Assembly (NCBI GenBank): GCA_958450365.1
Contig: CAUEEP010000511.1
Coordinates: 1-64,000 of the forward strand
DNA length: 64,000 nucleotides
Source of the DNA: Mesorhabditis belari
Lineage: Eukaryota; Nematoda; Chromadorea; Rhabditida; Rhabditidae
Reading direction: 5' to 3'
Below are positions 33,425 to 49,825 of this stretch, one piece after another. A program made the position numbers and the translations under genes. The notes under the pieces are model-generated. The model was not told where the DNA came from and ran no database searches. It worked only from the letters and a program-made list of their open reading frames with translations. Every line of letters starts with the position of its first letter. The stretch's first letter is position 1.

Positions 33425-34316
33425 TATGATCACTTATTTTTTCCCATCCATTCTCGTCTTTTTCTCCTCCACAGATCCGCCGGGTATCCCTTCCTTAAAA
33501 AGACCAAAAGCTTTTTTCCGCATGAACCTCTTTTTCTCTTTTTCTCTTTTTCAATGCCTGTGAAACTAGCCCCTCACCACATTGAGGCAATGGAAACACT
33601 TGGCATCTCCTTCAACTATTCCTTCAAAAAACACTTTTATACACTTTCTGTCAAACAGATACTTGACTCCTTCGATTTCTTGATGACGACTTTAATATTT
33701 TTCTAAATGGGATACACGTGTGAACGAGTTGGCACCTTTGCTGCGTTGATCGCTTTTTGCATTAGGTGGGTTTCACTCAACTGTTATTTAATTGATGCTT
33801 TGTGGAGTCTTAACCTTGTTTTGTCCCGCTTTCTCAAGGGGACTTCCAAAAATTGACATATACTCATAATTGTCCGTCTGCACGGAAATCTTTAGTAAAA
33901 GGCGAAAGATTTTCTCGGTCAAATGCAGACGAACCAGAGATACGAAAAGTGGGAAAGGAAGCGGTTAATGGAAAAGGAGTATGCCAGAAAGAGAACGATT
34001 ACACGATTACGTGCGCGCACAAAGAACGCTCAAAGGAGCCATTATACTGGATTACGGGCGCACAGAACGAACAAGAGAGCACACAGGGGAGAGTGGGAGA
34101 CTGAGAAAATTGGAGTGGGGACGGGAAACAGAGACATCGGGGAGACATAGAGGAGAAAGAAGTTGTGGAAAATAGTGTGCAATCTTTAGAGAACACAGAG
34201 CAAACAACTCATTCGCCTTTTTAGAGGTTCTTTGCGGGTTCTTTCTTTCTTCCACCAATCGCCCACTTTCTCGCACATTCTCCACACAGATATGTTTCCC
34301 ATTTTACCATTCTAGT
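33425..34316. other. Region upstream of the U2 array
   Basis: Pyrimidine-rich, then purine-rich (33900-34150) sequence. The last about 100 nt before 34317 should hold the snRNA promoter (PSE) if U2 A is a real gene start, but I cannot recognise the element without relatives. An ATG at 33708 (MGYTCERVGTFAALIAFC, donor-like TAG|GTGGG) is a weak exon candidate. Confidence 0.35.
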
Positions 34317-34374
34317 ATCGCTTCTGGCCTCTGGCTAAGATCAATGTGTAGTATCTGTTCTTATCGGCTTAATA
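34317..34374 (+). ncRNA. U2 snRNA, 5' part only (copy A)
   Basis: ATCGCTTCTGGCCTCTGGCT, AAGATCA.TGTGTAGTATCTG and TTCTTATCGGCTTAATA match the 5' domain of U2 snRNA, including the GTAGTA branch-point-pairing motif (34350-34355). The match stops after TTAATA, where retroelement sequence begins. The Sm site and 3' stem-loops are not found anywhere in the window, so it cannot give a normal U2. Confidence 0.9.
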
Positions 34375-34512
34375 CGTTGATTTGAGCAGAGAAAGAACGT
34401 TGATCGATGCCGAGGATGAATTTTGGTTTTAGCGTGATCTCGGTCCCCCACGCACCTGTGGGGGACCGAACACCTGAGGATATGCGATCCAATGAAGAAA
34501 GAGTAAAAGAAG
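34375..34512 (+). mobile_element. Element A: 138-bp 5' fragment of a D-type U2 retroelement
   Basis: Matches the first about 138 bp of element D (43571 onward; CGTTGATTTGAGCAGAGAAA, start ATGCCGAGGATGAATTTTGG) almost exactly, and then stops where the second U2 5' part begins. Probably the remains of recombination between two U2 copies. Confidence 0.85.
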
Positions 34513-34569
34513 TCGCTTCTGGCCTCTGGCTAAGATCAATGTGTAGTATCTGTTCTTATCGGCTTAATA
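34513..34569 (+). ncRNA. U2 snRNA, 5' part only (copy B)
   Basis: Near-identical to copy A over TCGCTTCTGGCCTCTGGCTA to TTAATA, ending at the same base. It is followed by a different retroelement 5' end (AGTTGATATGAGCAG). Confidence 0.9.
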
Positions 34570-36964
34570 AGTTGATATGAGCAGAGAAAGAACGTTGATC
34601 AAAGTCAGGCAAGCGAAGAATTTTGGAAGTAGCGTGATCTCGGTCCCCCACGCGCCTGTGGGGGACCGGATTTCGGAGGATATGCGGTCCAATGACGAAA
34701 GAGTAAAAGAAAGAACCCCCAACCCGGGAAGGCAAGGCCCCAAGCGGAAGAGTGTGGGACAAACGGCTAAAAGAAACGCCACGGAACCTGATTCCGAAAA
34801 GATATCAAAGCCACCCACCCCGCCAAAAGAAAATAGCCAAGCCGACCCCAGCGCAGCGCGCCAAGAAGTCAACTTTACTCCACGCATTGTTTTCAACCTG
34901 GCCCTCGAACCGATGCTCCGTGCCCTACACGACCAACAGTGTGGGTACCAACTCAACGGACAACACATCGACGTACTCGCGTACGCCGATGACATCGCCC
35001 TCGTCGCCAAGAGCTCGGTTCGCCTCCACGACATGCTCGATATGGTCACCACCGTCGCCTCCTGGTCTGGACTCGCCTTCAACGCCAAGAAGTGTGCTTC
35101 ACTCGTCATCGATGGTCGCCAACACACCGCCCTTCGAGTGCCATTCAACATCCAAGCCAAGCCAATGGTCATGCTGAAAGAAGACGACACCTACGAACAC
35201 CTCGGAGTGCCCACGGGATACCACCGCGCCCCATCCGCCGAACTTGCCCTGCAGAAGATGACTACCCACGTCGAAGCCATCGACAAATCTCTTCTCGCAC
35301 CTTGGCAAAAAGCGGATGCCGTCAACACATTCGTCCTCCCGTGCATCTCCTTCCACCTCAAGAACGGTCTCGTCCCAAAAGAGCCTCTGACCGAATTCGA
35401 CAACAAGCTGAAGGCTATCGGCAAGAAGTGGCTCAATCTCCCTTCACGTGGCAGTCCGGAAGTGGTCTACCTCTCCAACCAAATGGGTGGACTCGGCTTC
35501 TTACCAACGAACACGCTCGCTGATGCCTTCCAAGTCGTCCACGCCCACCGCCTGCTCTCCAGCGCCGACATGCAGTCCATCGCCTACCCACAGCTTCGAG
35601 ACGTGGTCAAGAAGAAGCTCCGTCGTGCCGCCTCCAACGAAGAACTTGCCGACTACCTCAATGGCCGACTCGATGGAGACTTTGCCCAAGGATCTTCTGA
35701 CCTCTCCACGATGTGGTCACGCCTTCGAGCCGCAACCAGCCGCCTTCACAAGTTCATGGACGTGAAATGGATGTGGAACGTCGACCAACTCGTGCTCCAA
35801 CTCAATGCCTCTACCATCCCACCACGAAGTGTCGAGAAGTGTCTCCGATGGGCCATCCGCGACTACCACAAGAAGACGCTCCTCGCCAAGCCGGACCAAG
35901 GGAAAGTCTATCGAGTCACCTCCGCCAACGAAGCCTCCAACCACTTCCTTCACTCTGGCAACTTCACCCGCTTCGCTGACTGGAGGTTCATCCATCGTGC
36001 TCGATTGGACTGCGTCCCATTAAACGCCACCCAGAGGTTCGGCAATCGCAACAAGAACTGCCGTCGATGTGCCCACGGTCTGGAGACTCTGCCCCACGTT
36101 TTGTGCCACTGCAAGCCAATGCAGGTCGCCGTCCGTCATCGCCACAATGCTATCGTGAATCGTCTCGTCAAGGCCTTCAAACCGCCACCCACCACAACTC
36201 TCCTACTCGACCAGCGTGTGCCCGGCCTTGCGGCGAAGTTCCGACCAGACATCACCGCCATCGACCACTCAAACAAGACCGTGCTCATCGTGGACGTGAC
36301 AATGCCCTTTGAGAATGGACCCGACGCCTTCCCAGCCGCAAGAGCCGAGAAGAGCCGCAAATACCAGCCAATCGTCGACCACTTTCGCGCCCTCAACTAC
36401 GAAGTTTCTCTCGACGCCTTCATTGTTGGCCCTCTCGGTGGTTGGGATGTGTGCAACGACATGGTCCTTCGCAAACTCGGCATCTCCGCAAAATATGGCC
36501 AACTGATGAGACGACTGATGGTGACCGATGCAATCCGATGGTCCCGTGACATCTACGTGGAGCACATCACCGGCAGCAAGCAATACGAGGTCCCCAATGG
36601 TGATAATTGATCTTTCTTCTTCCTATTTCTTCTAGTCTCTCCTAGTCTTTCTTCTCAAATTGAAATTTACCTAACTTTCACCTTAACTGTGATTTAGTCT
36701 TGTGTATTCGTATAGGTTCTCAACATTTACTGCCTAGTGCTTTAATGTTTATACTTTACTTAACTATTCTATCTGTGAATATTACTTCTCATGGTTTCCT
36801 ATTTCACTAGGCCCATCTACCATTCATCCTTTAACCCTTTCATGTGTTTGCATACACCCTATGTTTTTCTTTAAATGTGGGTTCCTATATTCTCTGTGTT
36901 TTGATCCGTTGTGATGAACCGGGCTGGGGTTATACCATGCCAAATATTCTCTGAATAAAGCTAA
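34570..36964 (+). mobile_element. Element B: internally deleted U2-targeting retroelement
   Basis: The 5' end is identical to element C (AGTTGATATGAGCAG..). The 3' UTR ends CTGAATAAAGCTAA, followed by the 22-bp U2 target copy at 36965-36986. About 1.8 kb is missing from the middle, removing the zinc fingers and first half of the RT. Non-functional alone, but both element ends are kept. Confidence 0.88.
34577..36610 (+). pseudogene. Chimeric, RT-truncated ORF of element B
   Basis: The reading frame is open for 677 residues. Residues 1-98 match the N-terminus of element C. At EVNFTPR|IVFNLALEP it jumps into the RT palm and from there is nearly identical to element D (YADDIALVAKS at about 135-145). 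It then carries the RT thumb, the CCHC knuckle CRRCAHGLETLPHVLCHC and the restriction-like endonuclease (RPDITAIDHS..LIVDVTMPFE). RT motifs before the palm and both zinc fingers are missing. Confidence 0.88.
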
Positions 36965-36986
36965 ATCTGTTCTTATCGGCTTAATA
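36965..36986 (+). other. U2 target-site copy 1
   Basis: ATCTGTTCTTATCGGC plus TTAATA: the last 22 bases of the U2 5' part, between elements B and C. Confidence 0.9.
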
Positions 36987-36993
36987 AGTTGAT

Positions 36994-39900
36994 ATGAGCA
37001 GAGAAAGAACGTTGATCAAAGTCAGGCAAGCGAAGAATTTTGGAAGTAGCGTGATCTCGGTCCCCCACGCGCCTGTGGGGGACCGGATTTCGGAGGATAT
37101 GCGGTCCAATGACGAAAGAGTAAAAGAAAGAACCCCCAACCCGGGAAGGCAAGGCCCCAAGCGGAAGAGTGTGGGACAAACGGCTAAAAGAAACGCCACG
37201 GAACCTGATTCCGAAAAGATATCAAAGCCACCCACCCCGCCAAAAGAAAATAGCCAAGCCGACCCCAGCGCAGCGCGCCAAGAAGTCAACTTTACTCCAC
37301 GCAACTCACCAAAAAAGAAGAAGAAGAGAAGAAAGAGAAGAAGACGATCAAGAAGGAGACGACATCGCCACGCCACCTCGACCTTCCACGCCTACCCGTC
37401 GACGTAGTGCAAGAAGCGGAACATCGCCCCGACCTGTGCCGCCGCCGCCGCCGCATGTGTTGCCGCCGCCGCCGCCGCCAGCGAAGGAATCGCCGCTGCA
37501 ACTCGCCGATGATGATCAAGACAAAGCGTTGGAAGAAGAGGAAGAAGAGAAACGAGCTGAAAGTGAAAGAGAAAGCGAAAGAGAAAGAGAAAATGAGAAA
37601 GAGAAAGAGAATGCAGAGCCAAGCGAAGAAGATGACTACGTGCTCGACGTGCCCTTCGACCCTCAACTCAAGTGCTTCTGGTGCGTGTCGGTCTACAAAC
37701 GCCATGGCGACCTGAAGAAACATCTGAAGAAACACGACTGGACAAAGGAATTCGTCTTCAGATGTCGCCATTGCCAAAAGAAGTTCGACACGAAGAAGGC
37801 CGCCGACAGTCACCAGAAGCGCCCGTGTGAGGAAGATGGATTGCCGATCACCCAAAACGACTACCTGGTTGAGACGTTGGACCCCGCCCTGATCGACCTG
37901 AAGTGCCGCCTGTGTCCGCAAGCTAAAGCCACCACCTACTCAGCGCAGAAGGCTCTTCAAGCCCACCTCCGTGTTCATCTGGCCAAGCTTGTGATGGTGT
38001 GCACCAAATGTGGTTCGAGGTTCGAGAGAAAGCGGGATTTCGACGGCCACACCAACAACTGCAAGAAGACTGTTGAGAAGACGCCACCCCGTCCGATCTG
38101 CCAAGTTGAGCAACGTCGGGCTCGGTTAGTCGTTGGATCGATGCCGGAAGAAGAACCACCGCCAACACAAGAAGCAATTGTCGTCTTTGAGGGATCGCCA
38201 ACACGTGGAGAAGCCATCGCCAAACCAAACGAGCAGAGAAGGGCCTCCCGATCGCCATCTCTGATCAATGTCTCCTGCACCACCAACCACCAAGCCACTC
38301 CGCCCACGACACCAACCGCCACTCAACCGCCTCTCTCCGTGAGACGCCCGGCCGGTGCCCAACATCAACAAGAATGGGTGGTGAAATTCGACAATGTGCA
38401 GTCACCAGCCGAGATGGACGCTCTTCTCGCCGATCTCATCGAAGTCGCCAAGAAGTCAACCAAGATGGCCGACCAACCACCAAAGCCTCGACGTCACAAC
38501 GACAACCGTCGTCCACCACCGCCAAGAAGACAGCAGCAGTACGACCCAGCCGCCGCCTCACGCATCCAGAAGCTCTACCGTCAAGCTCGCCCACGAGCCT
38601 ATCGTGAAGTGGTGGAAGCCGACTCGCCGTACTGTGCCATTCCTGCCGACGACCTCCACCGCCACTACTGCCAAGTGTTCGGTCCGTCACCGCCCGTCGA
38701 CTTGGATGTGCCCGACTTCGTGCCCAAACAAGAGGAACTGCCAGCCGGCGAAGAAGATCCACTCAATCAGCCATTCACGTCATCAGAAGTGTGGGATCGC
38801 CTTCGCCGCTGCTCAAACACCGCTCCTGGCTCTGATTTGCTGAGATACGCCGTGTGGAAGAAGTTCGACGCGGGTGGACACATCCTCTCATCGGTCTTCA
38901 ATGCCGTCCACCGTCTCCAACACGTGCCACCCACATGGAACCAATCTTCGACGGTGCTGCTGCACAAGAAAGGCGACAAGGAAGAGGTGACCAATTGGAG
39001 GCCGATCTCACTCAGCAACACCATTGCAAAGACGTACGCCTCGGTTCTCGCCAACAGACTGGGAAGATGGGCATCGCGAAATGGAAGAGTATCAGCCGCG
39101 CAGAAAGGATTCGTGGCCGCTGACGGATGTGCCGAGCACAATTTCTTGCTCCAAACCGCCATCGTCAACGCCCGAAGAAAGCGCCAACACATTGCCATCG
39201 CCTGGCTCGATCTCACCAACGCGTTCGGATCGGTGCCCCATCAAACGATCTTCACCGCTCTCAAGTACGCCGGTCTCAGCGCAAGCGCCATCGATGTGGT
39301 TCGTCGTCTCTACGCAAATTGTACCACCACCATCAGAAGCAAGACGGGACCAACCGATGCCATTCCAATTCAAGCCGGGGTGAAGCAGGGATGCCCGCTC
39401 AGCCCCATCGTGTTCAACCTTGCCCTCGAGCCAATGTTGCGAGCCGTGATGGAGGCGAAAGCTGGATACAATCTCCATGGCCGAACCGTCGATGTCCTAG
39501 CTTACGCGGACGACCTTGCAATCGTTGCCAAGCGCCCACGCGAGCTGCAAAATGTCCTCAACATTGTTTCATGGTCGGCCGACTGGTGTGGTCTCAAGTT
39601 CAACGCGAAGAAATGTGCAACCCTCTGCATCGATGGGAAGAAACAACTCGCCCTCCAAGACAGCTTCCTCCTCCAAGGCGAACGACTGGTGGTCCACACC
39701 GAAGACGACTTGTACGAGCACCTCGGCACTCCCACTGGCTACCGCTCAGCACCAACCGCACAGAAGGCCGTCGAGAAGATGACGAAAGAGCTGGAAGCCG
39801 TCGACAAATCACTCCTCGCTCCGTGGCAGAAGGCCGATGCCGTCAACACCTTCATTCTCCCGTGTGTGACCTTCCACCTGAAGAATGGCGTGGTCGAGAA

Positions 39901-41122
39901 GAAGCCGTTGAAGAACTTTGACAAGAAACTCAAGGCCGCCGGAAAGAAATGGATGAATTTGCCCGACCGAGCCAGTCCAGAAATCATCTACCTCAGTCAT
40001 CAGATGGGAGGACTTGCTCTGCAGCCGCTCACCATACTCGCGGATGTGTGTCAACTCGTCCATGGTCTCCGTCTCCTCGACTCATCTGACATGGCAGAAG
40101 TGGCCCTTCAATCGCTTCGCGAGACGGTGACCAAGCGACTCCGCCGAGATGTGCAAAATGAAGATGAAATGGCTGAGTACTTGAATGGATCGATGAATGG
40201 CGACCTCAGACAAGAATCTTCCGACATCACAAACATGTGGAGTCGTCTTCGCGCAGCAACTCGTCGTCTCCAATCCACGATGTCCGTCGAGTGGAAATGG
40301 GATGCCGGAAAACTCGTCCTTCGCCTCAACCAATGCCCATTGCCTGCAAAGACGGTCGAATACTCATTGCGTTGTGCCATTCGCGACTTTCATCGACGGC
40401 GACTCCAAGCCAAGCCAGACCAAGGGAAAGTCTTCTCTGTGACGTCCACTTCCTCCGCATCCAATCACTTCATGAGGGCCGGCAACTTCACTCGTTTCGC
40501 AGACTGGCGATTCATTCATCGTGCTCGCCTAGACTGTGTGCCCCTGAATGCAACCCAAAGATTCGGCAACGGAAACAAATCGTGCAGAAGATGTGGGTAT
40601 GCCGCCGAGACTCTCCCCCATGTCCTGTGCCATTGCCCACCGCAATTCGTCACCATCACGCGTCGCCACAATGCCATCCTCGATCGCCTTGTCCGAGCCT
40701 TCAAGCCACCACCCACGACTGAAGTGCGGTTGAATCAACAAGTGCCCGACATCAACGACAACCTACGCCCCGATCTGGTCGCCATTGACAACATCAAGAA
40801 AAGCCTCATCATCATCGATGTGACGATGCCATTTGAGAATCGCCAGGCCGCCTTCGAAGTCGCTCGCCAAGAAAAGAGGAGAAAATACGACCACATCGCC
40901 ACACACTACAAGAATCTTGGCTACGATGTGTGTCTCGAAGCTTTCATCGTTGGTCCACTTGGCGGATGGGACTTCGGCAACGAAATGGTGCTCCAGCGAC
41001 TCGGAATTCACGTGCGATATGGGGAGTTGATGAAGAAATTGATGTGTTCGGATGCTATCAAATGGAGCCGGGACATCTACGTCGAGCACATCTCGGGAAG
41101 AAGACAATATGAAGAGGCCTGA
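36994..41122 (+). CDS. Utopia-like polyprotein of element C (one frameshift)
   Basis: The retrotransposition protein would nick U2 DNA and prime cDNA synthesis there. The N-terminus from ATG 36994 (MSRERTLIK..; SVISVPHAPVGDR) is in one frame. Near the A-run at about 37308-37320 the homologous protein continues in the next frame, which stays open to 41122. Features in order: a Pro-rich and Glu-rich linker, two C2H2-type fingers (CFWCVSV..H..H; FRCRHCQKKF..H) plus further ones near 37906 and 38000, RT motifs NWRPISLSNTIAKTY, WLDLTNAFGSVPH, KQGCPLSPIVFNLALEP and AYADDLAIV, the CCHC knuckle CRRCGYAAETLPHVLCHC, and endonuclease RPDLVAID..IIDVTMPFE. If the shift is real, the copy is dead or needs programmed frameshifting. 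Confidence 0.88.
37059..37084 (+). other. Perfect 10-bp hairpin near element 5' end
   Basis: GGTCCCCCAC, six-base loop, GTGGGGGACC. The same stem is present in fragment A (about 34441-34466), element B (about 34643-34668) and element D (about 43638-43663), with loop changes only. It lies in coding sequence (VPHAPVGD), so protein constraint could also explain its retention. Confidence 0.6.
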
Positions 41123-41421
41123 AGGCGATATTGATTGATCCTTTTGAATTACTGTGATTTCAATAAGATTTTATGATATTAATTTAAAGATTTCTAACTT
41201 TCATGTATTCATGCAAACTTTCATGTATTCATGCAACTTTTGTGTATTCTTTGCAAGTGTCTCACCAGTCACTTTTCATTTCTAACTTTTGACCCTTTTC
41301 ACTGTGATTAAATGCATCCCAAATTCTTTTTGGCTTGTATCCTCAAATTTTCATGTACCATATTGTGATGGATCTTAAGTGGGGGTCCATACCCACTCAA
41401 ACATTGTCTGAATAAAATTAA

Positions 41422-41443
41422 ATCTGTTCTTATCGGCTTAATA
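41422..41443 (+). other. U2 target-site copy 2
   Basis: The same 22-bp U2 segment, joining element C to X1. Confidence 0.9.
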
Positions 41444-42488
41444 GGCTTTTGGACTCGTAAATCTCGGAGATACTTCAGAGCAATCTGTCGGTCGAGTGGA
41501 AGACGAAAGCCCATAGTTTTGGACTCATCAGTCTCGGAGATACTTCAGAGCAATCTGTCGGTCGAGCGGAGGACGAAACTCATTGAGCTGTGCGGAGCAG
41601 GGAAAAACGTTGATTGGAACCACTGGCCCTCGTCACTCCACTCTTCACGCCGCCGCCGTTTGATGGTGAAGAATCTGCTCTTCTTATCGACTCAATGAGT
41701 GACCTTGTTGAGGCAGCATTGCCGAGACAAACCTCATTGATGTCGGGCAAACTCGTCGTTCTCGTCTCGTCTCCGAAGTTGCTGCCCAGAAAGGATGCTG
41801 ATCCGATGCTGCCAGGACGTCGATGGTGTGCCGCCGCTTTATGCTTACCCATGCCGCCGCCTGAAGACGTCCAGCCCTGCGTCTCACACCCTGCCTGCCC
41901 AGACGGTGAAGAAAGGCGTCCGAGACCCGATCGGCCCCCTGCGATCTCGATGATGGTGCCGCCGCTTTATGCCTCAACCCTAGGCGCCATCTGACAGTGA
42001 TCAGGCCCGAGGACTCCGCCCAATCTTTCGCTCAACGACGGTGAAGAAGCGTTCGACTGCTCCAAGACTCCAAGAAGACAGACGGTGAAGAAGATGTCGA
42101 CTACTCATCCTGATGGTGTGTGCCGCCGCTTTATGCCTCAACCCTAGGCCGCCTGTGGATGCCAGAAATCGACAATGCCTTCCTCTACCTCAACGACGGT
42201 GAAGAAGAGAGCCTCCACTCCAAAGAAACGATCATTCATCATTTATCTTTCCGGTTCGTGATGTCTTATTTTTGCAACATCTTGATTTCTGCAATCAAAT
42301 GTTTCCTCTTATTTCTGGATGTTTTCATCCTTTCGATGTCGCATCTTTCCATTTCATTGACCCACCCTTTTATATGCCACCTCAAATTTTCTGTGTGTTG
42401 CATCCTCTCATTTTCTCAATTTTGACCCGTAATTGTCATACACCGGCCGGGGTGCATACCGAGCCCATCATTCGCTGAATAAACTAAA
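41444..42488 (+). mobile_element. Element X1: non-autonomous U2-site retroelement
   Basis: 1045 bp, no RT or endonuclease. The 5' end GGCTTTTGGACTCGTAAATC is shared with X2 and E, and contains an about 78-nt direct repeat (GTCTCGGAGATACTTCAGAG). The body has repeated GACGGTGAAGAAG and CCGCCGCTTTATGCCTCAAC blocks. The 3' end (CACCGGCCGGGGT..CTGAATAAACTAA) resembles the 3' UTRs of D and B, which is what the enzyme of a full-length copy would need to recognise. Short open frames are not convincing. Confidence 0.8.
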
Positions 42489-42510
42489 TCTGTTCTTATC
42501 GGCTTAATAG
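42489..42510 (+). other. U2 target-site copy 3
   Basis: The same 22-bp U2 segment, joining X1 to X2. Confidence 0.9.
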
Positions 42511-43548
42511 GCTTTTGGACTCGTAAATCTCGGAGATACTTCAGAGAAATCTGTCGGTCGAGTGGAAGACGAAAGCCCATAGTTTTGGACTCATCAGTCT
42601 CGGAGATACTTCAGAGCAATCTGTCGGTCGAGCGGAGGACGAAACTCATTGAGCTGTGCAGAGCAGGGAAAAACGTTGATTGGAACCACTGGCCCTCGTC
42701 ACTCCACTCTTCACGCCGCCGCCGTTTGATGGTGAAGAATCTGCTCTTCTTATCGACTCAATGAGTGACCTTGTTGAGGCAGCATTGCCGAGACAAACCT
42801 CATTGATGTCGGGCAAACTCGTCGTTCTCGTCGCCAAAGTTGCTGCCCAGAAAGGATGCTGATGGATGCTACCAAGACGTCGATGGTGTGCCGCCGCTTT
42901 ATGCCTTCCCATGCCGCCGCCTGAAGACGTCCAGCCCCTCGTATCACACCCTGCCTGCCCAGACGGTGAAGAAAGGCGTCCGAGACCCGATCGGGCCCCT
43001 GTGATCTCGATGATGGTGCCGCCGCTTTATGCCTCAACCCTAGGCGCCATCTGACAGTGATCAGGCCCGAGGACTCCGCCCAATCTTTCGCTCAACGACG
43101 GTGAAGAAGCGTTCGACTGCTCCAAGACTACAAGAAGTCAGACGGTGAAGAAGATGTCGACTACTCATCCTGATGGTGTGTGCCGCCGCTTTATGCCTCA
43201 ACCCTAGGCCCCCTGTGGATGCCAGAAGTCGACAATGCCTTCCTCTACCTCAACGACGGTGAAGAAGAGAGCCTCCACTCCAAAGAAGCGATCATTCATC
43301 ATTTATCTTTCCGGTTCGTGATGTCTTATTTTGCAACATCTTGATTTTTGCAATCAAATGTTCTTTCTTATTTTCTGGATGTTTTCATCTTTTCGATGTT
43401 TCATCTTTCCATCTTATTGACCCACCCTCTTTATATGCCGCCTCAAATTTTCTGTGTGTTGCATATTCTCATTTTCTCACATTTGACCCGTAATTGTCAT
43501 ACACCGGCCGGGGTGCATACCGAGCCCATCATTCGCTGAATAAACTAA
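42511..43548 (+). mobile_element. Element X2: second copy of the non-autonomous element
   Basis: 1038 bp, about 95% or more identical to X1 by eye, in the same orientation and with the same ends. The differences are small indels (for example near 42832-42870), so the two are recent copies from one source. Confidence 0.85.
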
Positions 43549-43570
43549 ATCTGTTCTTATCGGCTTAATA
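43549..43570 (+). other. U2 target-site copy 4
   Basis: The same 22-bp U2 segment, joining X2 to D. Confidence 0.9.
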
Positions 43571-46500
43571 CGTTGATTTGAGCAGAGAAAGAACGTTGAT
43601 CGATGCCGAGGATGAATTTTGGTTTTAGCGTGATCTCGGTCCCCCACGCACCTGTGGGGGACCGAACACCTGAGGATATGCGATCCAATGAAGAAAGAGT
43701 AAAAGAAAGACCCCCCAACCCGGGAAGGCGAGGCCCCAAAGCGGAAGAGTGTGGGATAACGGCTAAAAGAAAAGCCACGGAACCTGATTCCGAAAAGATA
43801 CCAAAGCCACCCACCCCGCCAAAAGAAATTAGCCAAGCCGACCCCAGCGCAGCGCGTAAGACAACACAAGAAGAAGACGACTTCACGCCTCGCTCCAACT
43901 CATCAAGAAGAAGAAGAAGATCACCACCCGCCGCCCAAGATGAAGAAGAAGAATCCGACGTGTCGCCCTCTCGTCGCCTCCGAGCCAACCGAGCTCCCCC
44001 TGGGTCCGCGCAGCCGCCATCGGCGCCGCATGTGTTGCCGCCGCTCTCGCCGCCGCCGCCAGGAACAGGACAACCGGGAACGCTCACCAACGACGATGAC
44101 GACACCGACGACTACCCACTCGACCTGCCACACCTCGACACCAACTACCAATGCCGTCTCTGCAGCAAGAAGCCGTATGTGATGCAAGGAGGACTCACCC
44201 GACACCTGCGCGACGTCCACCGGAGGAAGATCATCTTCCGCTGCCGTGGATGTCGTCGCCTCTTCACGACCGCCAAGGAATGCAATCGCCATCAGAAGAA
44301 GTGCGCAGTGCCAGCAGCCCCCGGGCCAGTACTGACAGCTCAGCCAGCGCAGGCGCCAATCGTGCTACCACGTGCGCAGGTGCCAATCGTGCCACCACGT
44401 GAGTCTGTGTCTGAGCCTGTCTTGTCCGTGCCGCCAACACCGATGCTGACACACGCCTCTTCGCCGCTTCCTAGTCCTCCACATCCACACGCTTCTCCGC
44501 CGCTCTACAGACGTGCCCAACACCAAGCCGAATGGTGCCGCCGCATCGAAGCCGTCACCACCGAAGTCGAACTCGACGCCACACTCGCCGACCTGACCCG
44601 TGAAGTGAAGAAGAAGACCTGCCAAGCAGACGGTGAAAAAGCCCCCTCTCGACCACCTCCGCGTGCTCAAGGCCAACCCAACCGCCGAAAGCCGCCTCCG
44701 AGACCAACCTACGACCCAAAAGACGCCGCGAGGATACAGAAGCTCTATCGATCTTCTCGTCCACGCGCCTTTCGGGAAGTGGTCGACGCTGATTCACCGT
44801 TTTGCGCCATCGACAAAACAACTCTACATCAACACTTCACGCAAGTCTTCGGCCCATCACCTCCACTCGTAGGACCAATGCCAGCCCTGGTGCCGCCACA
44901 AGTCAAGCCAATCCCAGCCGACGAGGCCGACCCGTTCTCCACCGACTTCACTCCCGAAGAAGTGTGGAAACGCCTCGTCCGCTGCTCCAACACGGCTCCC
45001 GGCCCAGATGGCATTCGCTACGTGTCCTGGAAGAAGTTCGACATCGGTGCTCACATCCTCTCAACGCTCTTCAACACCATCCACCGACTTCGATGTGTAC
45101 CGGCCACCTGGAACGAATCTGCGACGATCCTCATCCACAAGAAAGGAGACAAGACGGACGTTGGCAACTGGAGGCCCATCACCCTCTCTAACACGATTGC
45201 CAAGACCTACGCCTCATGCCTCTCCGCCCGTCTTGGATCCTGGGCAGCCCGCCACCAACGTGTCTCATCGTCGCAGAAAGGCTTCATGGCGGTCGACGGA
45301 TGCGCCGAGCACAACTTCACACTCCAGACGGTGATCAATGACGCCCGAAGGACTCGCCAAACCGTAGCCATCTCGTGGCTGGACCTCACCAATGCCTTCG
45401 GCTCCGTCCCACACGAGATGCTCTTCGAGTCACTGAAGTTTGCTGGCCTCCACGACAACTCCATCGAGACGGTGAAGCGACTCTACTCCAACGCCTCCAC
45501 CACGATCAGGAGCTCCGACGGACCAACCGATGCCATCCGAATCCAAGCCGGGGTGAAACAAGGGTGCCCACTCAGCCCCATTGTTTTCAACCTGGCCCTC
45601 GAACCGATGCTCCGTGCCCTACACGACCAACAGTGTGGGTACCAACTCAACGGACAACACATCGACGTACTCGCGTACGCCGATGACATCGCCCTCGTCG
45701 CCAAAAGCTCGGTTCGCCTACACGACATGCTCGATATGGTCACCACCGTCGCCTCCTGGTCTGGACTCGCCTTCAACGCCAAGAAGTGTGCTTCACTCGT
45801 CATCGATGGTCGCCAACACACCGCCCTTCCAGTGCCATTCAACATCCAAGCCAAGCCAATGGTCATGCTCAAAGAAGACGACACCTACGAACACCTCGGA
45901 GTACCCACGGGATACCACCGCGCCCCATCCGCCGAACTTGCCCTGCAGAAGATGACAAACCACATCGAGTCAATCGACAAATCTCTTCTTGCACCATGGC
46001 AGAAAGCTGATGCGGTCAACACGTTCGTACTCCCATGCCTCTCCTTCCATCTGAAGAACGGTGTCGTCCCAAAGGAGCCTCTGACCGAATTCGACAACAA
46101 GCTGAAGGCTCTCGGCAAGAAGTGGCTCAATCTCCCGTCACGTGGCAGCCCGGAAGTGGTCTACCTCTCCAATCAGATGGGTGGACTCGGCTTCCTTCAA
46201 ATGAACCCGCTCGCTGATGTGTTCCAACTCGTCCACGCCCTCCGCCTGCTCTCCACGGCCAACATGCAGCCCATCGCCTATCCACAGCTCCGAGACGTGG
46301 TCAAGAAGAAGCTCCGTCGTGCCGCCTCCAACGAAGAACTTGCCGACTACCTCAATGGCCGACTCGATGGAGACTTTGCCCGAGCTTCTTCCGACCTCTC
46401 TTCGATGTGGTCTCGTCTCCGAGTGGCTACCCGTAGCCTCCACAAGTTCATGGCTGTGCAATGGGTGTGGCTCGTCGACCAACTCACGCTCCAACTGAAC

Positions 46501-47710
46501 GGCTCCAACATCCCACCACGTACCGTCGAAACGACTCTCCGAAGTGCCATCCGCGACTACCATCTCCGCCAACTTCTCGCAAAGCCGGATCAAGGGAAGG
46601 TCTACACCGTCACCACGCTCTCCACTTCTTCCAACCACTTCATGCGTGACGGCTCCTTCACCCGCTTCGCTGACTGGCGCTTCCTTCACCGTGCCCGACT
46701 CGACTGCGTGCCACTCAACGGGACTCGACGCTTCGGTCCAGGCGACAGACGGTGCCGACGATGTGCTCATCCAAACGAAACTCTGCCCCATGTGCTGTGC
46801 CACTGCAACCCGCACATGGTTGCAATCACCCGCCGACACAATGCCATCGTCGACCGTCTCGTCAAAGCCCTCAAGCCGCCAGTCACAAGCCAAGTCCGAC
46901 TCAACCAACACGTGCCCAACTTCGATGCGAAATTCCGGCCCGACATCTTGATCATCGACTCAACCTTCAAGACGGTGCAACTCATCGACGTCACGATGCC
47001 ATTCGAGAACCGACCCGAAGCCTTCCAAGCCGCCCGCCAAGAAAAACAACGCAAGTACCAAACGATCGCCCAACACTTCGAAGCTCTCGGCTACTCGGTG
47101 ATCCTCGACGCTTTCGTGGTCGGCCCGCTCGGTGGATGGGATCTCGCCAACGACGAACTCCTCAAGAAGCTTGGTGTTTCCTTCCGCTACGCACGTCTCA
47201 TGAAGAAGCTGATGGTGTCGGATGCCGTGAAATGGAGCCGGGACATCTACGTCGAACACATCACTGGAACCCGCCAATACGACCCTTGAGTTCTTAGTCT
47301 TCTCTTCTTTCTTGCTTTCTTGTTGTCTTTCTCTTTTGTCTCCCCCTAGCCAAAATCATCCCTATCTTGCCTTGCGATCAAATATCTGTGATAATGCATC
47401 TCACATATCTCTCATATCTAACTTTCGTTCTGACTTTCATTTAGTCTTGTGTTTTCCTATAGGTTCATAACATTTATTGCTTTGTGCTCTAATGTTCTAT
47501 ATTCTACTCAACATTTTTATCTGTGCATACCTCTTCTCATGGTTTCCTAATTCACTAGGCCCATCTACTATTCCTCATTCAACCCGTTCTGTGTTTGCAT
47601 ATACCCTATGTTTTCTTAAATGTGGGTTCATACATTTCCTGTATTTTAATCCTTTGTGATAGACCGGCTGGGGTTTTGTACCATGCCCATCATGCACTGA
47701 AATAAACTTA
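43571..47710 (+). mobile_element. Element D: full-length U2-targeting retroelement with intact ORF
   Basis: 4.1 kb from CGTTGATTTGAGCAGAGAAA to CACTGAAATAAACTTA, flanked on both sides by the 22-bp U2 segment. Its single ORF is open, so this is the best candidate for an active source element in the array. Confidence 0.92.
43603..47289 (+). CDS. Utopia-like RT/restriction-like-endonuclease protein, intact (element D)
   Basis: 1228 residues, one open frame. Start ATG 43603 is shared with fragment A. Residues 1-180 are basic, Pro- and acidic-rich linker. C2H2 fingers lie near 184-208 (YQCRLCSKKP..H..DVH) and 211-234 (FRCRGCRRLF..H..KC), likely DNA-binding. RT domain near 520-760: NWRPITLSNTIAKTY, WLDLTNAFGSVPH, KQGCPLSPIVFNLALEP, and AYADDIALV with the catalytic Asp pair near 693. 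CCHC knuckle near 1050 (CRRCAHPNETLPHVLCHC). Endonuclease near 1112-1150 (RPDILIID..LIDVTMPFE, then the K/R-rich EKQRKYQ). Nothing essential is visibly missing. Codon use is strikingly GC-rich beside the AT-rich host genes. Confidence 0.92.
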   Translation: MPRMNFGFSVISVPHAPVGDRTPEDMRSNEERVKERPPNPGRRGPKAEECGITAKRKATEPDSEKIPKPPTPPKEISQADPSAARKTTQEEDDFTPRSNSSRRRRRSPPAAQDEEEESDVSPSRRLRANRAPPGSAQPPSAPHVLPPLSPPPPGTGQPGTLTNDDDDTDDYPLDLPHLDTNYQCRLCSKKPYVMQGGLTRHLRDVHRRKIIFRCRGCRRLFTTAKECNRHQKKCAVPAAPGPVLTAQPAQAPIVLPRAQVPIVPPRESVSEPVLSVPPTPMLTHASSPLPSPPHPHASPPLYRRAQHQAEWCRRIEAVTTEVELDATLADLTREVKKKTCQADGEKAPSRPPPRAQGQPNRRKPPPRPTYDPKDAARIQKLYRSSRPRAFREVVDADSPFCAIDKTTLHQHFTQVFGPSPPLVGPMPALVPPQVKPIPADEADPFSTDFTPEEVWKRLVRCSNTAPGPDGIRYVSWKKFDIGAHILSTLFNTIHRLRCVPATWNESATILIHKKGDKTDVGNWRPITLSNTIAKTYASCLSARLGSWAARHQRVSSSQKGFMAVDGCAEHNFTLQTVINDARRTRQTVAISWLDLTNAFGSVPHEMLFESLKFAGLHDNSIETVKRLYSNASTTIRSSDGPTDAIRIQAGVKQGCPLSPIVFNLALEPMLRALHDQQCGYQLNGQHIDVLAYADDIALVAKSSVRLHDMLDMVTTVASWSGLAFNAKKCASLVIDGRQHTALPVPFNIQAKPMVMLKEDDTYEHLGVPTGYHRAPSAELALQKMTNHIESIDKSLLAPWQKADAVNTFVLPCLSFHLKNGVVPKEPLTEFDNKLKALGKKWLNLPSRGSPEVVYLSNQMGGLGFLQMNPLADVFQLVHALRLLSTANMQPIAYPQLRDVVKKKLRRAASNEELADYLNGRLDGDFARASSDLSSMWSRLRVATRSLHKFMAVQWVWLVDQLTLQLNGSNIPPRTVETTLRSAIRDYHLRQLLAKPDQGKVYTVTTLSTSSNHFMRDGSFTRFADWRFLHRARLDCVPLNGTRRFGPGDRRCRRCAHPNETLPHVLCHCNPHMVAITRRHNAIVDRLVKALKPPVTSQVRLNQHVPNFDAKFRPDILIIDSTFKTVQLIDVTMPFENRPEAFQAARQEKQRKYQTIAQHFEALGYSVILDAFVVGPLGGWDLANDELLKKLGVSFRYARLMKKLMVSDAVKWSRDIYVEHITGTRQYDP

Positions 47711-47732
47711 ATCTGTTCTTATCGGCTTAATA
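47711..47732 (+). other. U2 target-site copy 5
   Basis: The same 22-bp U2 segment, joining D to E. Confidence 0.9.
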
Positions 47733-49506
47733 GGCTTTTGGACTCGTAAATCTCGGAGATACTTCAGAGCAATCTGTCGGTCGAGTGGAAGACGAAAGCC
47801 CATAGTTTTGGACTCATCAGTCTCGGAGAAGTTGTTGGCATTCAGAGAAGTTGTTGAGGCAGGTTCACCATTTTGCCAAATTCCAGCAAACGACCTCCAC
47901 CGGCATTTCAGCGACGTGTTTGGACCGTCCCCACTAGTGGATCCGACCATTCCCGACTTCGTGCCAGAGCAAGAGGACAACCTAACCGGTGATGTTAACC
48001 CGTTTAACGAAATCTTTACAGCTCCGGAGGTTTGGTCTCGTCTCTCCCGATGCTCCAACACCGCGCCTGGTCCGGACCTCCTTCGCTACGCCGTGTGGAA
48101 GAAGTACGACAACGGTGCACACATCCTTGCCTCGCTCTTCAACGCTTGTCACCGACTACATCACGTGCCAGCGAAATGGAATCAATCCTCGACGGTGCTG
48201 CTCCACAAGAAGGGCGACAAAAGAGAAGTTAACAACTGGAGACCTATCTCCATGTCCAACACTATTTCAAAGGTTTACACTTCAACTTTAGCAAATCGTC
48301 TTGGGAAGTGGGCAAGCCGCCATGGACGTATCTCCAAATCGCAGAAGGGCTTCGTGGCAGCCGACGGATGTGCGGAACACAACTTCGTTCTCCAATCGAC
48401 CATCGTGGACGCGCGACGGAACCGAAAACAAGTTTCAATGGCATGGCTTGACTTAACAAATGCCTTTGGTAGTGTTCCCCATCAATCCATTTTCAGTGCC
48501 CTCAAGTACGCCGGACTCAACAACACTGCCATCGAGGTCATCCGCCGTCTCTACGCCAACTGCTCCACAACCATCCGAAGCTCCACTGGTCCGACCAACG
48601 ACATCCCAATTCAGGCAGGAGTAAAGCAGGGTTGCCCTTTGTCACCCATTATCTTTAATTTAACACTTGAGCCTCTTCTCCGAGCCATCTCCCAAGTCAA
48701 CAACGGATACAAGATGCATGGACGAAATGTGGATGTGCTAGCCTACGCGGACGACCTTGCGGTAATCACAGGTACCCCAACCCAACTTCAGAAAACACTC
48801 GATGTCGTCTCCTCGGCAGCTGACTGGTTAGGGCTGAAGTTCAACTCGAAGAAGTGCGCCAGCCTCTGCATCGATGGGAAGAAGAAACAAGCGCTCAACA
48901 ACCGACTACGAGTACAAGGGGAGTTTATAGCCGTCCACTCTGAGGACGACCTATATGAACACCTAGGCACACCAACCGGCTATCACTCCGCCCCCAGCGC
49001 TCAGAAGGTGATTGAGAAGATGACCGCCCAGCTCGACGCCCTCGACTCCTCGTTACTCGCTCCATGGCAGAAGGCCGACGCCATCAACACCTTTGTTTTA
49101 CCGTGTATCTCTTTTCATCTAAAAAATGGTGTTGTAGCAAAAAAGCCACTTACAGCATTCGACAACAAGCTCAAGGCCGTCGCCAAGAAATGGATGAATC
49201 TGCCGGAACGCGCCAGTCCAGAAGTCCTCTACCTCTCCAGTCAGATGGGTGGTTTAGGTCTACAGAAAATTTCAGTTCTCGCGGATGTCTCCAAGCTTGT
49301 GCACGGCCTCCGACTACTCACCTCACCAGATGTCAAGGACTTCGCCGCAGCCTGCCTCCACGAGACGGTGACCAAACGACTTCGGAGGGCGATACGTAAC
49401 GAACAAGAAATTACTCAGTATCTGAACGGTTCAATGGAAGGAGATTTCAGGCTTGAGTCCAGCGACATCACCAACATGTGGATCCGACTACGCAAAGCGA
49501 GTCGGT
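47733..49506 (+). mobile_element. Element E: deleted X-headed retroelement
   Basis: Starts with the X1/X2-type 5' end (GGCTTTTGGACTCGTAAATC). At about 47828 it jumps into the protein region just before the RT. It loses the CCHC and endonuclease region at about 49506, where unrelated LINE sequence begins. This shows that the X1/X2 5' end belongs to an autonomous coding family. Confidence 0.8.
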
Positions 49507-49604
49507 CGGTTCTCATCCCCACCACCTTTCCCTTTATCATTCTTTCGCGAACCGTATTAGTAGGGTTTGGAATAAGCTCCCGCCTGGTATCTTCTCGTCT
49601 GTAG
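47808..49604 (+). pseudogene. RT fragment of element E fused to foreign tail
   Basis: 598-residue frame. Residues from about 10 match C and D: FREVVEAGSPFCQIPANDLH, NWRPISMSNTISKVY, WLDLTNAFGSVPH, KQGCPLSPIIFNLTLEP, AYADDLAVI, and a thumb ending SSDITNMWIRLRKASRS. The N-terminal fingers and C-terminal endonuclease are missing. Its codon use is less GC-rich and its sequence is more distant from C and D, so it is a separate lineage. Confidence 0.85.
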
Positions 49605-49825
49605 GAAAATTCAAAGTATCTGTAAACGAATTAGATCTTATTGCCATGTCAAATCTGCCTTATATTTAATCTTTTTGTACTTTTTGTTTCCTAACTGTAG
49701 TCTTACTGTACTATTTTTAGTTTTCTTTTTGTGAAAGTATTGTAGCAATTATATGCGGTTATGATTATCTGATTCGCTTCTATTCGCCCTCCTGAATAAA
49801 GCATATATATATATATATATAATTG
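49507..49825 (+). mobile_element. 3' end of an unrelated (Jockey/CR1-like) LINE
   Basis: In the frame ending at 49669 it reads SFANRISRVWNKLPPGIFSS, the typical C-terminus of APE-type LINE ORF2 proteins, then a stop, a UTR with AATAAAG, and an (AT) tail at 49803-49821. It is joined directly to element E. Confidence 0.7.

Follow-up and report, generated by a model that had tools for sequence, protein, structure and literature searches.

Utopia elements are non-long-terminal-repeat (non-LTR) retrotransposons of the NeSL clade that are specific for U2 small nuclear RNA (snRNA) genes (Kojima and Jurka 2015, PMC4640811). The sections of that paper drawn on here describe occasional tandem insertion in Nasonia wasps, 20-bp duplications in reptiles and a family in Pristionchus, and pose as a puzzle the survival of U2-specific elements where intact U2 genes are scarce. 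They also cover Keno, which uses the same U2 site but has an apurinic-type endonuclease, and NeSL-1, a nematode element of a related clade that targets the spliced-leader exon. R2, in 28S ribosomal DNA (rDNA), is co-transcribed with its target gene, and the target sequence at the 5' end of its RNA is thought to anneal and so give uniform 5' junctions (relevant parts of PMC3774820 and PMC11331408).

Here we describe an array of Utopia-like elements in a 64,000-nucleotide (nt) stretch of the Mesorhabditis belari genome (C381:1-64000, hereafter the window), within a 207.6-Mb assembly. The array sits in a real U2 snRNA gene, at the target site named in the initial annotation of this DNA. Like Utopia, its elements carry a reverse transcriptase (RT) with a restriction-like endonuclease, have a 3' flank starting at U2 nt 39, show a duplication of about 20 bp as in the reptile families, and are inserted in tandem as in Nasonia; as such insertion has been published for these wasps, this kind of array is already known (PMC4640811, in part). 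A U2-complementary, Sm-like leader, fossil joins at the U2 start and N-type passengers, all found here, are not mentioned in the portion of that text drawn on.

As in R2, the elements would be transcribed together with the gene they occupy and keep part of it at the 5' end of their RNA, and their 5' junctions are uniform. They differ in that the target is U2, no hepatitis delta virus (HDV)-like ribozyme was matched in the seven loci searched and the RNA appears to start where the gene itself does. With NeSL-1 they share the nematode host, the endonuclease type and, probably, a related clade; the insertions examined here, however, are in U2, and one 5' join in an SL1 gene (L050) has U2 nt 1 at the join. 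A search of four reading frames (Pfam, E 0.001) found neither a Ulp1-like protease, a difference from NeSL-1, nor an apurinic-type endonuclease, a difference from Keno. The explanation developed below, in which an invaded U2 gene yields U2-started element RNA whose leader adds an Sm-type domain, appears to us, taken whole, rather likely to be right.

The target is a host U2 gene

The window U2 gene breaks off after nt 57 (TTAAT), where element sequence starts. Both U2 5' parts of the window (34317 and 34512) match Rfam U2 and end at nt 57 (..GGCTTAAT). The initial annotation had correctly seen that they share an end but had placed it after TTAATA; in host U2, TTAAT is followed by CTCCGG, which assigns the final A to the element. 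Intact host U2 genes are 189 nt long with a normal 3' half, for which reason the block after TTAATA was rejected as a divergent U2 3' half of the host's own. They are arranged in tandem units of about 1545 bp, each with a 5S gene and an SL1 gene, and the assembly holds at least 46 scored U2 matches. The 22-nt SL1 exon has 430 exact occurrences, in keeping with a nematode host. At C286:19879-23067 (L002 1-3189), U2, 5S rRNA (opposite strand) and SL1 occur in one such unit of about 1545 bp.

Upstream of the window U2 gene lies a box like the proximal sequence element (PSE), which by eye has the spacing seen for U2 genes of the host array and resembles the upstream regions of host U2 and U5. The divergent U5-U2 pair recurs with an intact U2 at two loci, C544:3228070 and C668:83305, which over the stretches matched share 96.0% and 96.6% identity with the window, respectively. 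As both carry this locus with U2 uninterrupted, they show the empty site.

Every internal junction of the array carries U2 nt 39-57, a segment also present within both U2 5' parts. The identical 22-bp U2 segment noted earlier at five junctions does match the host's real U2 genes at nt 39-57, although only 19-20 nt of it are true U2 (the T preceding nt 39 being ambiguous), to which a shared flanking A is added. Across the assembly, the junction pattern CTGTTCTTATCGGCTTAATD gave 66 + 54 = 120 matches and the reversed pattern 0, an excess beyond chance; full U2 genes and further insertions are both found. Sites were classified in the loci examined, among 100 of the 120, and comprise 67 distinct sites (63 under another key, in the search for internal U2 joins); this classification left out L001-L030 and the U1 loci. 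Upstream of the junction lies an element 3' end with AATAAA at 47 of the 67, U2-type sequence at 19 (five being diverged internal copies in N2 elements and two intact U2 genes) and a composite at one. An element 3' end is followed by U2 nt 39-57 and then another element at 39/67, and 8 of the 47 element 3' ends, at eight distinct junctions, run into intact U2 from nt 39. U2 specificity is thus upheld by the host U2 genes, the two uninterrupted copies of the locus, these eight junctions, and the RT and endonuclease motifs.

The contigs include near-duplicates such as C598 and C286, and the element copies are therefore not all independent events. Junction spacings in C598:4026-17085 mirror those in C286:82054-95116, in reverse order and to within one base, as in redundant or duplicated copies. 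Homopolymer differences among copies suggest residual sequencing error.

Element RNA and the U2 start

Families are lettered here: A and B have full-length units in the window, C is an A-like element (91% over 2953 nt), a D-like unit ends the array, F is a further family, and N and N2 are passengers. U2 5' parts followed by an element were compared in 17 distinct contexts, of which five carry the array promoter and two, each behind a promoter-like box, are likely orphan U2 genes (window 34317; C703, L120/L128). The ten others are joins of complete U2 5' parts to foreign DNA, and all 10/10 start at U2 nt 1 or 2: at nt 2 in L055, L060, the outer and inner joins of C704 (L119/L126) and window 34513, and at nt 1 in L028/L084, L050 within SL1, L082, L092 within a B open reading frame (ORF) and L074, where a short repeat makes the exact point ambiguous. 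The elements downstream are of types A, B, D and N. Ten distinct joins at nt 1 or 2 indicate that the RNA template probably began at the U2 start, and we think it very likely, on this comparison of sequences, that element RNA begins at the U2 transcription start.

Two cases weigh against this: a second join in the composite L028/L084 falls at U2 nt 29, and in N2 elements the internal U2 copy, apparently one inherited event, begins near nt 4. Besides L028/L084, no further join within U2 nt 3-38 was seen in the loci examined. A candidate inside U2, L120, was rejected as a variant U2; this orphan 5' part (L120/L128, C703:953000-953600) has GGCTTATGGC in stem I and a promoter-like box, and holds a B element. 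The diverged U2 5' half within N2 passengers (L041, L056 and others) is a captured target fragment and lies 237 nt after the element start in several copies.

At C704 and in the window, the copy appears to pass from U2 nt 2 of one RNA into another, at about B nt 290 and at B nt 138, respectively, and two U2-initiated RNAs seem to have been copied in series. In the window the second U2 5' part starts at nt 2 directly after B leader without a promoter, and so looks like a cDNA end rather than a gene. We considered whether the stub before it, ending at 34511, marks where a chimeric snRNA was processed, and rejected this: in the sister case at C704 the switch comes near B nt 290, so that nothing singles out the end point. 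Annealing of the R2 kind would, by analogy, fit the uniform junction after U2 nt 57.

A leader predicted to pair with U2, and its Sm-like site

The leaders of families A, B, C and F are predicted to pair, by their nt 3-32, with U2 nt 23-52 through 22 bp, in helices GAUCAAUGU/ACGUUGAUC, UCUGUUC/GAGCAGA and AUCGGC/GUUGAU, with the branch-site-binding GUAGUA placed in an internal loop. Folding of U2 nt 20-57 with leader nt 1-36 gave energies of -27.3 to -30.9 kcal/mol, where shuffled leaders gave about -12; none of 1000 shuffles was as low for any of the six core-bearing leaders (6/6), and 23 of 1000 were for the host's own U2 continuation. The core 30-mer occurs 48 times across ten contigs, 47 times without mismatch.

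Beyond the core, the leader octamer AATTTTGG is identical to that of the host SL1 gene, and the Sm-like site in the U2-leader RNA is AAUUUUGG. In A, B, C and C544, ATTTT(T)GG is followed by a hairpin whose predicted energy is -31 to -33 kcal/mol, and the two together arose in 0/2000 shuffles in each case, the Sm-like core alone in 27-73 of 2000. U2 plus leader has in these four, judged from sequence only, the Sm-class layout of an Sm-site consensus and then a stem-loop, and U2 nt 1-57 with about 100 nt of leader is predicted for A, B and C to have that of a short Sm-class RNA.

Variability was assessed in 21 B copies out of 30 aligned rows, the nine dropped being A, C-type, F, recombinants and one indel-rich copy. 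Module borders were drawn post hoc, with the sequences already seen, and the border at nt 106/107 lies two nt ahead of the ATG at nt 109. Variable sites numbered 0/33 in the core, 0/8 in the Sm-like octamer, 0/10 in nt 97-106, 2/31 in the hairpin region and 4/24 in the linkers; nt 1-106 thus had 6/106, as opposed to 33/179 in nt 107-285 (Fisher p = 0.0022). The octamer and hairpin stem are the same in A and B leaders, whose differences lie at nt 2, at nt 9, in linkers and hairpin loop, and directly beyond the hairpin. The C leader beyond the core differs from that of A, yet keeps the layout with another hairpin sequence. An Sm-domain role of the leader, as modelled from these features, is in our view quite possible, if short of probable. 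The bolder version, that the leader would be a portable snRNA 3' half turning the broken U2 into a chimeric Sm-class RNA with a locked 5' domain, an Sm site and a hairpin, we regard as unlikely.

Several observations count against a functional Sm-type leader. The shuffle tests were devised after the features had been noticed and are thus post hoc. In D, N and N2 the foldback is ordinary (161, 420 and 558 of 1000 shuffles as low, respectively), and these families, which show no such Sm-like site within 170 nt, use the same U2 site without the layout. F has the core and Sm-like site with a weak hairpin (-11.6 kcal/mol; 3/2000 shuffles), that of the decayed L124 is also weaker (-18.3 kcal/mol; 1/2000 shuffles), and the Sm-like site of C falls within an open frame. 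The leader adds little to the Rfam U2 score, which is 53.4-56.7 bits with it; D scores 49.7 bits and an N-derived chimera 50.2. Finally, leaders have been exchanged between families, so that their sameness need not reflect selection.

Another Rfam RNA as the source of the leader was rejected: in seven loci only U2, 5S and SL1 were matched, and the leaders' 3' parts had no match beyond U2. By eye, the flanks of U1, U2, U5 and SL1 are similar to the stretch after the leader hairpin; because this stretch is purine-rich and, in B, open frame, an snRNA 3' box there was discarded and none is claimed. The family D leader (L038 from about 1520), which is without core or Sm-like site, carries GTTAACGTCAC close to the 5' end; with GTGACGTTAAC, some 190 nt further on, this might form a long-range stem. 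Two dispersed pieces, L122 and L123 (C701:524635 and C701:343324), contain the leader hairpin and following sequence without core or Sm-like site, and share one non-U2 context.

Alternative explanations

The main rival to the Sm-type domain is an ordinary Utopia-like array whose leader is a protective or protein-binding 5' fold, comparable to the 5' module of R2 templates, with U2 as one strand, no small nuclear ribonucleoprotein (snRNP) involved and the Sm-like site incidental; we hold it to be possible, though doubtful. The foldback is very stable by itself, F retains it with a weak hairpin, and thermodynamic stability of the 5' module is reported to matter for insertion by the R2 protein (PMC11331408, in part). 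Such a fold would not readily account for an octamer that is invariant between variable linkers in the B copies, lacks any A-B difference and recurs in the different leader of C.

The sameness of leaders might also stem from recent 5'-end exchange through template switching, without function. Leaders are common to several families up to differing breakpoints, hybrid units are common, and D is closer to A than B is in its RT, yet has no such leader. Since breakpoints vary and the RT tree does not follow the leader, such exchange does add to the sameness. As the whole cause it is improbable, given the lower variability of B nt 1-106 than of the sequence after it, A-B differences that avoid the modules, and the same layout built from different sequence in C.

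Alternatively, the leader could rebuild a working U2, with stem IIa, Sm site and 3' hairpin, so that the chimera splices and the insertion is harmless. AUCGGC/GUUGAU would remake a stem at the place of U2 stem IIa, and the Sm-like site and hairpin follow in U2 order. The predicted fold, however, also pairs U2 nt 23-31 and 38-44, which must be free for U6 and branch-site pairing; moreover, the 3' hairpin is unlike U2 stem-loop IV, the gain in Rfam score is small and many intact U2 genes remain, which together make this reading very unlikely.

We give little credence to the order of units being an assembly artefact: they are long and near-identical, some contigs look redundant (C598:4-17 kb against C286:82-95 kb) and copies differ in homopolymers, but the element-U2-element arrangement recurs at the 39 distinct sites counted above and the left flank is a real U5-U2 locus. 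Least probable of all is an unrecognised, R2-like self-cleaving ribozyme. In its favour, the cleavage point of R2 ribozymes may lie within the target, as far as 36 nt upstream (PMC3774820, in part), and target sequence joins the fold here too. Against it, seven loci with leaders of B, C, D and N among them gave no match to an Rfam ribozyme family at E values up to 0.5, although a diverged ribozyme could escape, and the ten foreign joins at U2 nt 1-2 are those expected without cleavage.

Array architecture

Positions in the window are given in Table 1. The array that follows U2 nt 57 consists of one stub, made of leader alone, and six more retroelement units, all in one orientation as reported previously; the count of seven units is amended accordingly. 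The first hybrid unit has 318 nt derived from A at 100% and a B-like 3' part at 79%. Each passenger N unit is about 1.05 kb, and the 3' end of copy 1 resembles that of B. The last unit has no U2 at its end, and the dispersed repeat of the array's tail has 40 scored matches, including the window's own copy. Hybrid units suggest that templates were switched. The proposal that each copy seems to have landed in the U2 stub left by its predecessor fits the internal junctions, all of which carry U2 nt 39-57. Four joins, at 34511/34512, 34886, 47829-47837 and 49504, have instead the look of rearrangements or template switches and are unlike new landings.

Passenger N copies (41443-41586, 42509-42652; L031) open with two tandem structured repeats of about 70 nt each, whose closing stem changes on both sides (GGCUUU/GAAAGCC versus AGUUU/GAAACU), which suggests a folded RNA. 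A tRNA-like origin of these repeats was rejected, as ARAGORN found no tRNA in the window.

Table 1. Features of the array and its left flank, in window coordinates
Feature	Position	Strand	Basis or remark
U5 snRNA gene, divergent neighbour of U2	33822..33942	-	Rfam RF00020, 86.5 bits
PSE-like box, ~53 nt upstream of U2	34264..34284	+	by-eye match
U2 gene nt 1-57 with own promoter region	34317..34373	+	Rfam U2 match
Leader-only stub, family B, 138 nt	34374..34511	+	100% to B nt 1-138
Stub, U2-complementary core	34376-34405	+	folding
Stub, Sm-like AATTTTGG	34419-34426	+	folding
Stub, hairpin	about 34441-34468	+	folding
Second U2 5' part, nt 2-57, fused straight onto B leader	34513..34568	+	base 34512 = G
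Hybrid unit, A leader/5' region and B-like 3' part	34569..36966	+	open frame 677 amino acids
U2 nt 39-57 at internal junctions	36967-36985, 41424-41442, 42490-42508, 43551-43569, 47713-47731	+	
Full-length unit A	36986..41423	+	open frame 37169-41122, 1317 amino acids
Unit A, core	36988-37017	+	
Unit A, Sm-like site	37036-37043	+	
Passenger element N, copy 1	41443..42489	+	without RT frame
Passenger element N, copy 2	42509..43550	+	96% to copy 1
Full-length unit B	43570..47712	+	open frame 43603-47289, 1228 amino acids
Unit B, core	43572-43601	+	
Unit B, ATG at leader nt 109	43678	+	
Terminal hybrid, N 5' end (97 nt) and D-like ORF	47732..49504	+	93% to D
Tail of unrelated dispersed repeat	49505..49815 (start approximate)	+	ends in (AT)n

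Encoded proteins

The RT domain (Pfam PF00078) was found in 4/4 frames, with E from 1e-8 to 3e-33, and YADD in 4/4. A CCHC finger and an RPD..D motif, as we take these to be defined, are present in A, B and the first hybrid unit and missing from the truncated last unit; the earlier reading of the coding units as RT plus restriction-like endonuclease agrees with this. Utopia proteins have one to three zinc fingers at the N-terminus and another, with the endonuclease (PD..D), at the C-terminus; a C2H2 match in A is weak, below the curated Pfam cut-off, and B has none. The A and B proteins are 56% identical across a 1089-column alignment, and the closest solved structures are R2 proteins. Named matches among the best 120 of 490 come from Dendroctonus ponderosae, Globodera, Plectus, Panagrolaimus, Centruroides, turtles, bees and ants, and overlap the species and genera listed for Utopia in the part of PMC4640811 drawn on. 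No relative was confirmed among viral contigs.

An RT tree with 24 rows joins A to the D-like last unit (100/99); B and one unnamed protein complete a set with these two (100/99), D being nearer to A than B is; this set lies near Globodera, Dendroctonus, Panagrolaimus, Plectus and one scorpion. Membership of the Utopia group, as originally proposed, is favoured by the flank at U2 nt 39, the RT and endonuclease motifs and the overlapping species; the tree, with no row labelled Utopia or NeSL, offered no such sequence to group with.

Proposed mechanism and implications

We propose that U2-specific, Utopia-like non-LTR retrotransposons invaded the U2 gene time and again, as did their passengers. 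Element RNA would be transcribed from the U2 promoter and start at the U2 start, as the fossil joins suggest. To judge by the 3' junctions, the element protein would nick U2 between nt 38 and 39 and copy the RNA there. The U2-derived cDNA end may then anneal to the target, giving the exact 5' junction after nt 57, whereas failed annealing would fuse U2 nt 1-2 to a second template or to DNA from elsewhere. In core-bearing families the leader would pair with U2 nt 23-52, and A, B and C would add the Sm-like site and 3' hairpin. The likeliest role of the leader, as we see it, would be to turn the 5' end of the U2-element transcript into a stable domain that binds Sm proteins and holds the working region of U2 in a stem; an Sm-type domain may bring capping, stability or nuclear return of element RNA in the manner of an snRNP, with no half-U2 released.

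No published U2-complementary, Sm-like leader was found in the parts of the open-licence PubMed Central (PMC) literature covered. The joins at the U2 start provide sequence evidence on transcription and 5'-end joining, and draw a parallel to R2 without a detected ribozyme. If the leader is indeed a portable 3' half, it would serve the cap, stability or nuclear return of the RNA, a poisonous half-U2 would be kept from forming, and the element could persist in an essential low-copy gene. A leader that folds onto U2 and bears an Sm-like site thus offers a concrete hypothesis, open to mutation, for the puzzle of how U2-specific elements survive.

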